DNA of 25,613 nucleotides from a virus. The notes beneath the pieces were generated by a model. It did not search any database and was not told the origin of the DNA. It saw only the letters and a program-made list of their open reading frames with translations. Each line of letters begins with the position of its first letter. The first letter of the stretch is position 1. Positions 5,729 to 18,170 of this stretch are shown piece by piece. Location of the stretch: the IMG/VR virus record IMGVR_UViG_3300009553_000068, positions 1-25,613 of that record; one strand, given 5' to 3'. Position numbers and translations under genes: made by a program.

Positions 5729-5777
5729 ATATAGCAAAGTTACTGTGGTTTATCAAAAATCAGTAACTTTGCTATAT
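5729..5777. repeat. 17-bp perfect inverted repeat at the 3' end of the glycosyltransferase gene
   Basis: ATATAGCAAAGTTACTG (5729-5745) and its exact reverse complement (5761-5777) surround a 15-nt loop. The right arm encodes the last glycosyltransferase residues (SKVTDF region), and the loop holds its stop codon (5753-5755). No strong U-tract follows on either strand. It may be a bidirectional transcription stop or the scar of cargo acquisition. Confidence 0.75.
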
Positions 5778-6724
5778 TCAGCGACTGATTGCAGCGACAA
5801 GATGGCCCACCGTAAAAAAGCATGTACCCGTTTCCCCGGCCAAAACATGGCTTGCCTGTAGCGTTCACGGCTTCCGGCTTTATCGCCATGCTGCTTGAGG
5901 GCATAAGCCAGGGAGCAAAGTTTGAATGAGACCGCTTCGGCGAATCGTGTTTTGTTTTGCAATAGAGCGGTTTTATGATGGGATTTCAGGACTTCAACGC
6001 CACCGTTCATTTGCCGAACGATGTAGGCATAAGGATTATCGTTCCCAGAATGTAAACCCATTATCGCCATAGGTCTATCGAGATAGCTAAGACCAAATCG
6101 ATCGCATAACCGTAAAGCCAAGTCGAAATCCTCGCAATACCTGATTCCTCTATTCCAACCGCCCACCTTCATCAATGCAGAACGCTTGACCAGGAAGGTC
6201 GGTGGAAACGCTGGGAAGCCACGCAGAAGCAATTCTACCGCACTGGTCGGACCGAGCTTGTACCAACCGGGGATAGGCTGCTCCGCGAGCGATTCGAGGT
6301 ATTCCATGGCCCATGGGAAATTAATCCTATTACCTGGTAAGGTCTCATCAGGGCGGTCCTCATGGATTCGGCGCAGGTCAGCGATCAGAAAATCGACAGG
6401 CTCTACAGCAAGGATATTCTGTAGCTGTTCGAGCTTATCGGCAGGCCACCAATCATCAGCGTCGAGGTAAGCGATATATTCGGCGGTTGAAGCCTCGGAG
6501 CCTGTTTGGCGGGCTGCCGCGGCCCCTCCATTCGATTGCCTGAGAAATCGTATTGGCAGATCGACTGACAACTCGGCAACCACGGTCGCCGTCTCATCGG
6601 TCGAGCCATCGTCAACGATGATAATTTCAGCGGGCTGGACTGTCTGAGCTTTGACGCTCGCAAGCGCTCTACCTATTGTCCGGGCAGCATTGTACGCAGG
6701 AATAACAACGGCAATATTAAACAC
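5753..6724 (-). CDS. Family 2 glycosyltransferase (cargo gene)
   Basis: Transfers a sugar from a nucleotide-sugar donor; the GT-A fold is clear. VVIPAYNAARTIGRAL opens the protein, VDDGSTDET is at residues 37-45, and the metal-binding D88-A-D90-DW motif follows. GGWNRGIRYCEDFDLALRL (about 200-218) matches the ED acceptor/catalytic region. Length 323 is normal for a soluble or peripheral GT2; no strong membrane helices are seen. It stands alone between the lysis genes and int, opposite in direction to both. P22-like phages carry O-antigen-modifying gtr genes near attP, so a surface-polysaccharide conversion role is a reasonable inference. However, no flippase or GtrA/GtrB partners are present, so the acceptor is unknown. 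Confidence 0.88.
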   Translation of the reverse strand: MFNIAVVIPAYNAARTIGRALASVKAQTVQPAEIIIVDDGSTDETATVVAELSVDLPIRFLRQSNGGAAAARQTGSEASTAEYIAYLDADDWWPADKLEQLQNILAVEPVDFLIADLRRIHEDRPDETLPGNRINFPWAMEYLESLAEQPIPGWYKLGPTSAVELLLRGFPAFPPTFLVKRSALMKVGGWNRGIRYCEDFDLALRLCDRFGLSYLDRPMAIMGLHSGNDNPYAYIVRQMNGGVEVLKSHHKTALLQNKTRFAEAVSFKLCSLAYALKQHGDKAGSRERYRQAMFWPGKRVHAFLRWAILSLQSVAEYSKVTDF

Positions 6725-16792: not shown

Positions 16793-16820
16793 ACAATACC
16801 AGATGTATTGGAGATTGCAA
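16793..16820 (-). promoter_or_regulatory. Putative pL promoter
   Basis: On the - strand, TTGCAA (16820-16815), a 16-bp spacer and TATTGT (16798-16793) predict a start near 16786, about 138 nt before the first leftward gene. The two operators at 16795-16809 and 16819-16833 overlap both hexamers, as expected for a repressor-controlled pL. Confidence 0.55.
16795..16809. promoter_or_regulatory. Left operator site 1 (AATACC-N3-TGTATT)
   Basis: AATACCAGATGTATT matches the AATACC-N3-GGTATT palindrome with one mismatch and covers the proposed pL -10. Confidence 0.65.
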
Positions 16821-16833
16821 TACCTTTGGTATT
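16819..16833. promoter_or_regulatory. Left operator site 2, perfect palindrome
   Basis: AATACCTTTGGTATT is a perfect 15-bp operator-like palindrome; its centre is 24 bp from site 1. It touches the proposed pL -35. Confidence 0.75.
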
Positions 16834-16844
16834 TATTTTAAAAA

Positions 16845-16859
16845 AATATCTTAGGTATT
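16845..16859. promoter_or_regulatory. Left operator site 3
   Basis: AATATCTTAGGTATT matches the palindrome with one mismatch; its centre is 26 bp from site 2, giving three regularly spaced sites as in lambda oL. Confidence 0.6.
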
Positions 16860-16930
16860 GGTGTATCTTAGTAACAGGGGAGGCCCCGCGGGGTGGGCGG
16901 GAAGAAGGATTGGGTATTTAGGAAAATAAA

Positions 16931-17110
16931 ATGCTGGACGAAATAATAAATCGATTCAGGAATTTAGGCCCAGATCAACAGAAGAAATTCATGGATTTTA
17001 TCATTGCTCGGACTGATCGCCCGCCCGCTCAAGAAGATCCAGAAACTTCAGAGCCTCCTGTTGCTGAGACAAAGAAAGGCGTCCAAGACGAATCTCAAAC
17101 TCACGAATAG
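16931..17110 (+). CDS. Possible 59-residue protein antisense to the repressor 3' end
   Basis: Encodes MLDEIINRFRNLGPDQQKKF then MDFIIARTDRPPAQEDPETS and an acidic/basic tail. AGGA lies 7 nt before the ATG. The last 110 nt are antisense to the end of the repressor gene, so it could be a shadow of that gene. The first 70 nt lie outside it, and the amphipathic helix looks protein-like. A weak rightward promoter (TTGCAA 16815, TTTAAA 16837) overlaps the left operators. Confidence 0.35.
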   Translation: MLDEIINRFRNLGPDQQKKFMDFIIARTDRPPAQEDPETSEPPVAETKKGVQDESQTHE

Positions 17111-17396
17111 TTCTATTGGTGACTGAGCTTATATCTTTGGCCGTTTGCTGAATAGACGGCCGGATCAGGCTTGCATCAAATTCCATGATTTGAGCCAGTT
17201 GGATCAATCTATGTTCGGGGATTTGTCGATCGCCGCTAAACCAGCGCTGAAGTTGACCCTGATTAATTCCATACTCTGCGCAGAATCGATCTTGAGATAG
17301 GCCATCATGGCGAGCCTTATATAGCTGCCATTGTTTCCGTAGCAATAGCCCCTCTCTCTTCCTTTGTGGGAGGGGGATTAAGTCTAGGCGTGGCAT
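17001..17396 (-). CDS. Short phage repressor (CI-equivalent) lacking a LexA-type peptidase domain
   Basis: 131 residues from ATG 17396, supported by GGAAGA upstream; in-frame upstream starts reach 17462 and would run into the operator. HTH region about 20-70: LSQDRFCAEYGINQGQLQRW is helix-turn-helix, followed by RQIPEHRLIQLAQIMEF. The C-terminal half is helical (IREFEIRLGRLSLSQQQEAL, KFLDLLERAG) and probably dimerises. No S24/LexA Ser-Lys self-cleavage domain is present, so RecA-triggered autocleavage is not expected. Divergent from cro with shared operators, which strongly supports its role as lysogeny repressor. Confidence 0.8.
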   Translation of the reverse strand: MPRLDLIPLPQRKREGLLLRKQWQLYKARHDGLSQDRFCAEYGINQGQLQRWFSGDRQIPEHRLIQLAQIMEFDASLIRPSIQQTAKDISSVTNRTIREFEIRLGRLSLSQQQEALKFLDLLERAGDQSEQ

Positions 17397-17452
17397 GTAA
17401 TTTTCTTCCAATCTCCAACATACATACTTGTACATCCACATCTTCTGCTCGA

Positions 17453-17481
17453 CAAATACCAAAGGGCTTGATAATCTTCAA
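17453..17481 (-). promoter_or_regulatory. Putative repressor-maintenance promoter (pRM)
   Basis: On the - strand, TTGAAG (17481-17476), a 17-bp spacer and TATTTG (17458-17453) predict a start near 17446, about 50 nt before the repressor ATG. It is weak in its -10 and overlaps both right operators, fitting autoregulation. Confidence 0.45.
17455..17469. promoter_or_regulatory. Right operator site 1 (degenerate)
   Basis: AATACCAAAGGGCTT has a perfect left half and a degenerate right half of the AATACC-N3-GGTATT palindrome. It overlaps the -35 of pR. Confidence 0.5.
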
Positions 17482-17496
17482 TGCCAGAGGTATTAT
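17468..17496 (+). promoter_or_regulatory. pR promoter for cro, predicting a leaderless cro mRNA
   Basis: TTGATA (17468-17473), a 17-bp spacer and TATTAT (17491-17496) are close to sigma-70 consensus. The start site, 7 nt after the -10, would be about 17503, which is the A of the cro ATG. Both right operators overlap the promoter. Confidence 0.7.
17480..17494. promoter_or_regulatory. Right operator site 2
   Basis: AATGCCAGAGGTATT matches the palindrome with one mismatch; its centre is 25 bp from right site 1 and it covers part of the pR -10. Confidence 0.65.
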
Positions 17497-17502
17497 TTAA
17501 AA

Positions 17503-17709
17503 ATGAAAAGCATCCATATCAAAGACTTTTGTGAGCAGCCTGGTAACAGCCAGCAAACTGCGGCCGACCTACTTGATCTTCATCAAACAGCCATATCGAA
17601 AATGATAAGGCGAGGTCGGCCTGTCTATCTGATTTTTGATAACAGGGATCGCTTTCTGCGCGCTGTAGAACGGCAGGAGCGAACTGTTGGCAAAAAGTCT
17701 AGGGGTTAG
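17503..17709 (+). CDS. cro: Cro-like regulator
   Basis: 68 residues: MKSIHIKDFCEQPGNSQQTA, then HTH residues about 18-38 (TAADLLDLHQTAISKMIRRG) and a beta end (RPVYLIFDNRDRFLRAVE). Layout and length match lambda Cro (TAKDLGVYQSAINKAI-type HTH followed by strands). First gene rightward of the operator, divergent from the repressor. No good Shine-Dalgarno lies at normal distance, which fits a leaderless transcript from pR. A longer frame from 17428 would start inside the operators and is rejected. Confidence 0.85.
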   Translation: MKSIHIKDFCEQPGNSQQTAADLLDLHQTAISKMIRRGRPVYLIFDNRDRFLRAVERQERTVGKKSRG

Positions 17710-17758: not shown

Positions 17759-18049
17759 TTACGACTCTGGCAATTTCAGGTCAGTTTGCACCATTTGATC
17801 GAATATTTGCTTGGCTCGCATGTTTGACAGAATCCCCAATGCAGCCGTGGTCCCTGACATTACTAACGAAAATAGTACCTGTGGATTATCAAATCCGAAC
17901 ATATAGAGAAGCCCGATATCCAGGGAGATGAGGGAAAGCAGCAGGCAGAACTGGCCGTTAATCGTGTTTCGGTGAACGCCGGATGCATGTGAAACGCTAA
18001 GACGCAGCGAGCAAATGAGATCAGGTAGCTGGGGTTGTTTTGTATTCAT
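17759..18049 (-). CDS. Antisense small membrane protein between cro and tR1
   Basis: 96 residues from ATG 18049, with AGGAGG 10 nt upstream and a possible own promoter TTGTTA (18124-18119), 17 bp, TATGCT (18101-18096). Two hydrophobic helices: FCLLLSLISLDIGLLYMFGF and LFSLVMSGTTAALGILSNM, then a charged end (RAKQIFDQMVQTDLKLPES). It runs against pR transcription, so it would be expressed mainly in the lysogen. A superinfection-exclusion role fits size and location but is inference. The competing + frame (17713-17931) looks less protein-like. Confidence 0.55.
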   Translation of the reverse strand: MNTKQPQLPDLICSLRLSVSHASGVHRNTINGQFCLLLSLISLDIGLLYMFGFDNPQVLFSLVMSGTTAALGILSNMRAKQIFDQMVQTDLKLPES

Positions 18050-18170
18050 GGTTTTGAGGCCTCCTTGGCTAGTTGTTGTGGTGTTAGAGCTAAGCAGCAT
18101 AGCCAAGAGCCTCTTCTTTAACAAATGGTCAGATTAACGCAGTAGAACTGCAAAAGATTGAACGAAACAG

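Follow-up and report, generated by a model that had tools for sequence, protein, structure and literature searches.

A shared AATACC-N3-GGTATT operator palindrome in the probable immunity region of a lambda-type virus genome

The stretch of DNA analyzed here (hereafter the window) is a virus record of 25,613 bases whose genes include those for an integrase, Erf-like and RecE-like proteins, a replication initiator, a DnaB helicase, NinB, NinG and a Q-like protein. The integrase, Erf, NinB, NinG, Q-like and DnaB genes are consistent with a temperate phage of the lambda type. A repressor gene and cro are divergently transcribed from a putative right operator cluster (OR), which precedes cro, and together with a left cluster (OL) it flanks the repressor gene (Table 1). 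Elsewhere in the window, a GtrB-like glycosyltransferase gene (5753-6724, minus strand) adjoins the lysis genes and is a possible O-antigen conversion gene.

Table 1. Features of the putative immunity region, in window coordinates. Operator and promoter assignments are predictions; mismatches are counted against AATACC-N3-GGTATT. L006, IMGVR_UViG_3300025924_000077; L007, IMGVR_UViG_3300005563_001078.
Feature	Position	Strand	Sequence or product	Remarks
OL1	16795..16809		AATACCAGATGTATT	1 mismatch; PWM score 15.2; identical in L006
OL2	16819..16833		AATACCTTTGGTATT	Perfect dyad, 0 mismatches; PWM score 19.5, the best in the window; identical in L006
OL3	16845..16859		AATATCTTAGGTATT	1 mismatch; PWM score 14.9; L006 copy differs by one spacer change
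OR2	17455..17469		AATACCAAAGGGCTT	Right half weak; 2 mismatches; PWM score 8.9
OR1	17480..17494		AATGCCAGAGGTATT	1 mismatch; PWM score 15.8; identical in L006 and L007
Repressor gene	17001..17396	-	131 aa; HTH like that of the lambda CI N-terminal domain	ATG at 17396; HTH_3 E=4.4e-6
cro	17503..17709	+	68 aa; lambda-type Cro	Pfam Cro and PDB Cro matches
pR	17468..17496	+	-35 TTGATA, N17, -10 TATTAT	Predicted start ~17503
pL, predicted	16793..16820	-	-35 TTGCAA (16820-16815), N16, -10 TATTGT (16798-16793)	Read from sequence
PRM candidate	17427..17455	-	-35 TTGTCG (17455-17450), N17, -10 TACAAG (17432-17427)	Predicted start ~17420

Five 15-bp sites share the palindromic consensus AATACC-N3-GGTATT, arranged in tandem with spacings of 24 and 26 bp in OL and of 25 bp in OR, and the positions and spacings given for them in the original prediction proved correct to the base. 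They are the only matches with two or fewer mismatches in the 25.6-kb window, for which first-order Markov shuffles give a chance expectation of 0.76 such matches on average; three sites within 60 bp were seen in none of 200 window shuffles. Composition-matched shuffles of the 0.86-kb region contained a mean of 0.036 sites, and five sites in 0 of 3000. A PWM built from 110 sites of relatives, at loci originally located with the consensus of the original prediction, ranked the five sites 1, 2, 3, 4 and 6 over the 25.6 kb scanned. The score of OR2 (8.9) is low against the relatives' median of 19.4. No third right operator (OR3) was found between 17380 and 17520, where the next-best PWM score is -15, as compared with 15.8 for OR1 and 8.9 for OR2.

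The sites had also been said to overlap good -35/-10 hexamers. This holds for pR, which matches the promoter consensus at 10 of 12 positions and is the promoter scanner's top site in the region, and was generous for pL, which matches at only 8 of 12 and falls under the scanner's cut-off. The -35 of pR overlaps the end of OR2 and its -10 the end of OR1; the predicted pL, identical in L006, has the same register on OL1/OL2, its -10 using the last four bases of OL1 and its -35 the last two of OL2. The PRM candidate adjoins OR2, with a predicted start 24 bases ahead of the repressor ATG and GGAAG in between. As the pR -10 ends six bases ahead of the cro ATG, the predicted first transcript base is the A of this ATG, which suggests that the cro mRNA is probably leaderless, while the cI mRNA probably has a leader. 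OR1 starts 23 bases before the cro ATG here; in relatives retrieved by Cro protein it starts approximately 48-54 bases ahead of the point where the Cro match begins. BoxA-like sites are no more frequent than expected by chance, and hence no nut sites were assigned.

HTH_3 was the sole Pfam hit of the repressor above the cut-off, with no match to Peptidase_S24; the CI proteins of five relatives (HK620, Erwinia phage 49 and three others) match S24 with E values of 3e-17 or lower. Against a CI-type HMM the window's repressor gives E=8e-4, and its best PDB match has E=0.014. Phage matches had E values no better than 0.5, no useful relative was found among phages or plasmids, and the AlphaFold model of the repressor (pLDDT 58) was too poor for use. 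Since the repressor is far from characterized CI proteins, its proposed use of the five sites rests on position. Its recognition helix reads QGQLQRWFSG, as opposed to the QGAVGHYLNG type in the CI proteins adjoining these operators. Cro matches Pfam Cro (PF09048) at E=4.3e-5 with 23.9 bits, under the curated cut-off of 32.7, but it also matches PDB Cro proteins, and iterated HMM searching places it among Cro proteins. A profile scan of genome contigs with the Cro alignment yielded no relative, and five scattered genomic matches to a DNA pattern from the OR region were treated as chance.

Two close relatives show how this region has been conserved. L006, whose repressor and Cro are 92% and 96% identical to those of the window, retains all five sites, with the sequence diverging left of OL1. 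The L007 contig starts just left of OR2 and encodes a Cro with 57% identity overall and 63% within the matched segment; it retains both right sites, OR1 being identical, together with the pR -35 and the PRM -35, and its pR -10 is TATTGT. The TTGTCG-N17-TAC of the PRM candidate is preserved in L007 despite a different spacer, and the distance from OR1 to the cro ATG is 9 nt in both phages although most letters in between differ. This pattern is what functional sites would be expected to leave. The weak GGCTT right half of OR2 is preserved in two diverged phages (window 17455-17469; L007 26-40), as though a weak OR2 had been under selection.

The palindrome also recurs in many phages beyond these relatives. 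Viral contigs were searched by DNA only, for one full site and a second half-site 8-12 bases away, with no protein used. This search returned at least 120 loci, approximately 79 of which, among those listed, encode a Cro homologue; this number is the 85 loci in the middle HMM rounds minus six not chosen by operator, and is approximate because the last HMM round took a repressor as the best match in three loci. Among the matches listed, the distance between an operator centre and the Cro ORF start is 6-46 bp wherever it was measured, and many loci have a second site cluster 1-3 kb away, across a CI-like gene. It should be noted that the listed loci are redundant, with 52 in one HK620-like cluster, the largest. 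When loci were instead retrieved by Cro protein, 80 were obtained, representing 50 distinct upstream regions; two or more sites are present in 49 of these and three or more in 41, against 1 for the best of 300 control half-sites. The Cro alignment was seeded mainly from operator-selected loci, so the operator is demonstrated for Cro proteins near the seeds and not for all Cro proteins. The PWM came from consensus-found loci and the Cro alignment mainly from the same loci, and hence these tests are not entirely independent of each other. The sites are also carried by L007 and Erwinia phage 49, both found with the window's own Cro.

A close known counterpart is HK620 (AF335538; also HK630, HK140 and mEpX2), which has the same class of palindrome at OL and OR. 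HK620 and the window share the 15-bp consensus, tandem arrangement within a 23-26 bp spacing range, an equal operator register on pR and, as predicted for the window, on pL, divergent cI and cro, and a lambda-type Cro. The HK620 record annotates OL1, OL2, OL3, OR1, OR2, OR3, pL and pR; its OL1, OL2, OR2 and OR1 hold matches to the 15-mer with at most one mismatch and its OR3 a two-mismatch match, and its annotated OL3 is not among the 15-mer matches. In contrast to the window, with two OR sites and three OL sites, HK620 has three OR sites, a CI of 238 aa with S24 instead of a 131-aa repressor without it, and a cro leader with a Shine-Dalgarno sequence (GGAG) where the window's cro is predicted to have none. 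Erwinia phage vB_EhrS_49 resembles the window in its Cro homologue and in the AATACC-type sites on both sides of its CI gene, and differs in having three sites on each side and a CI of 238 aa with S24.

Taken together, the comparative evidence strongly supports a bipartite lambda-type immunity region in which pL and pR have matching operators, at sites that flank the repressor gene and adjoin cro. It does not bear out the further claim that the sites define the operator code of this repressor/Cro pair, as the palindrome is common to many phages with quite different repressors. The operator code is real, but it is already known and shared: it is not new, because the HK620 record already annotates such palindromes as OL and OR operators, nor is it private to this pair. 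A literature search with the operator letters gave no relevant description among the matches listed. The missing OR3, the short repressor without S24, the probably leaderless cro and the conserved weak OR2 half-site were not part of the original prediction.

The reading that best accommodates these data, to which we give a probability of about 0.92, is that we are dealing with a temperate lambda-type phage and its immunity region, in which the palindromes would serve as OL1-OL3 and OR1-OR2 and would bind the short CI-like repressor and Cro, both as dimers. The main alternative is that the palindromes are operators of Cro only, with the short, diverged repressor using other DNA or acting otherwise. 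Conservation and the association across phages are indeed strongest with Cro, and the repressor helix is unlike the type found in CI proteins beside these operators. However, as in HK620, the sites overlie both predicted early promoters and lie on either side of the repressor gene; a role for Cro alone gives no obvious explanation for three left sites; the region has no other conspicuous cluster of similar dyads; and the repressor does match the CI-type HMM, so that we consider this alternative improbable.

That the motif recurs in many phages could also suggest that it serves a regulator other than the repressor and Cro, such as a host factor. Yet it tracks Cro genes at the short distances from the Cro ORF start given above, and HK620 annotates its sites as the operators of a CI/Cro switch, which makes such a regulator very improbable. 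Least credible of all is that the palindromes are chance products of AT-rich DNA: the intergenic stretches are AT-rich, but the composition-matched region shuffles, the conservation of the sites in relatives and the presence of the motif in the upstream regions retrieved by Cro already refute this idea.

Under the immunity-region reading, repressor bound in a lysogen to OL1/OL2 and OR1/OR2 would cover the -10 and -35 of pL and pR, keeping both early operons off, and repressor on OR2, whose centre lies approximately 42 bp upstream of where PRM is predicted to start, may assist PRM. Following infection or induction, Cro expressed from pR would compete for the same sites, turning both operons down.

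The window shares with lambda, as the latter is generally known, the bipartite OL/OR layout, similar spacing, half-sites with a common ACC-N3-GGT core and, by prediction, operators over pL and pR. The lambda half-site is TATCACC; in its frame the window's half-site is xAATACC, with A2, A5, C6 and C7 kept and positions 3 and 4 changed, and in the recognition helix the first glutamine is kept while the next residue differs from that of lambda. Hall, LeFevre and Cordes, as cited in PMC4488713 and PMC4997575, are said to have described in 2005 correlations between Cro recognition helices and half-sites, with operator specificity inferred by comparing the two. Lambda has an OR3 and a cleavable CI. 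As OR3 is missing here, repressor or Cro could not close PRM there as in lambda; as the CI C-terminal domain is absent, one would not expect lambda-style tetramers, an OL-OR octamer loop or RecA-stimulated self-cleavage, and both absences together make loop-based control of PRM as in lambda unexpected. The lambda cI mRNA from PRM is leaderless and the lambda cro mRNA is not, a pattern of which that predicted for the window, with cro lacking a leader and cI having one, is the reverse.

Since self-cleavage is not expected, induction probably needs an antirepressor, as in the Gifsy phages, whose repressors are small (136 aa) and non-cleavable and in which LexA-controlled antirepressors act (PMC3121763). 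Both systems have short repressors, a likeness in size, and an antirepressor gene is seen in Gifsy whereas none was identified in the window. In PY54, RACE showed the cro mRNA to be leaderless, as is that of cI, and a single operator is present, at OR3 (PMC4488713). PY54 therefore resembles the window in its leaderless cro (predicted in the window) and in having fewer operators than lambda; it differs in that the window lacks OR3 and retains OR1 and OR2. Other short repressors adjoin such operators in L056, L076 and L090. L076 retains three right sites alongside its short repressor, indicating that a short repressor need not be accompanied by the loss of OR3. In the short-repressor locus L090 (3759-3801) the right sites have the variant half-site ACTACC/AGTACC and the left sites AATACC.

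The short repressor, the absent OR3 and the apparently leaderless cro make this a mildly unusual form of the lambda-style switch, and the absence of OR3 and of the CI C-terminal domain represents a testable natural reduction of that switch. A more ambitious reading, which we offer tentatively and think rather unlikely, is that a switch of lambda layout has been rebuilt around a repressor without a domain for cooperativity or cleavage; such a switch would lack both OR3 and the OL-OR octamer loop and would have a cro without a leader, a cI with one and an antisense small gene (16931-17110) that could regulate the repressor gene. If true, it would amount to a natural experiment on which components of the lambda switch can be dispensed with. 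More broadly, in many phages a single operator palindrome is tied to Cro proteins whose recognition helices are related, which suggests that the operators can be identified from DNA in uncultured temperate phages of this class.

Several minor features accompany the region. The small ORF at 16931-17110 (59 aa, plus strand), preceded by AGGA, overlaps the 3' end of the repressor gene, which is on the opposite strand, and is kept in L006; it had no match in a phage search, and the idea that it is a decoy resembling the repressor tail was rejected when 2868 of 5000 shuffles scored equally well and BLASTP found nothing. An ORF of L056 (2028-2345, minus strand, with SD-like GAGGTGG) occupies the same position, starting 67 bp past the repressor stop as compared with 70 in the window, and its sequence relationship to the small ORF is not significant (at best, 373 of 5000 shuffles). 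A G+C-rich block, GGGGAGGCCCCGCGGGGTGGGCGGG (16880-16905), also kept in L006, lies between OL3 and the small ORF. Inverted copies (12/13) of TTGGAGATTG occur at 16808-16820, between OL1 and OL2, and at 17406-17418, upstream of the repressor start codon. Just past cro, inside the early right operon, a leftward ORF (17759-18124, minus strand) with likely membrane helices has a layout like that of a leftward ORF in L007 (274-615), and its 5' end is overlapped by a strong hairpin followed by a T-rich run (18040-18130, plus strand; RNA z-score -3.0), a possible tR1-like terminator.
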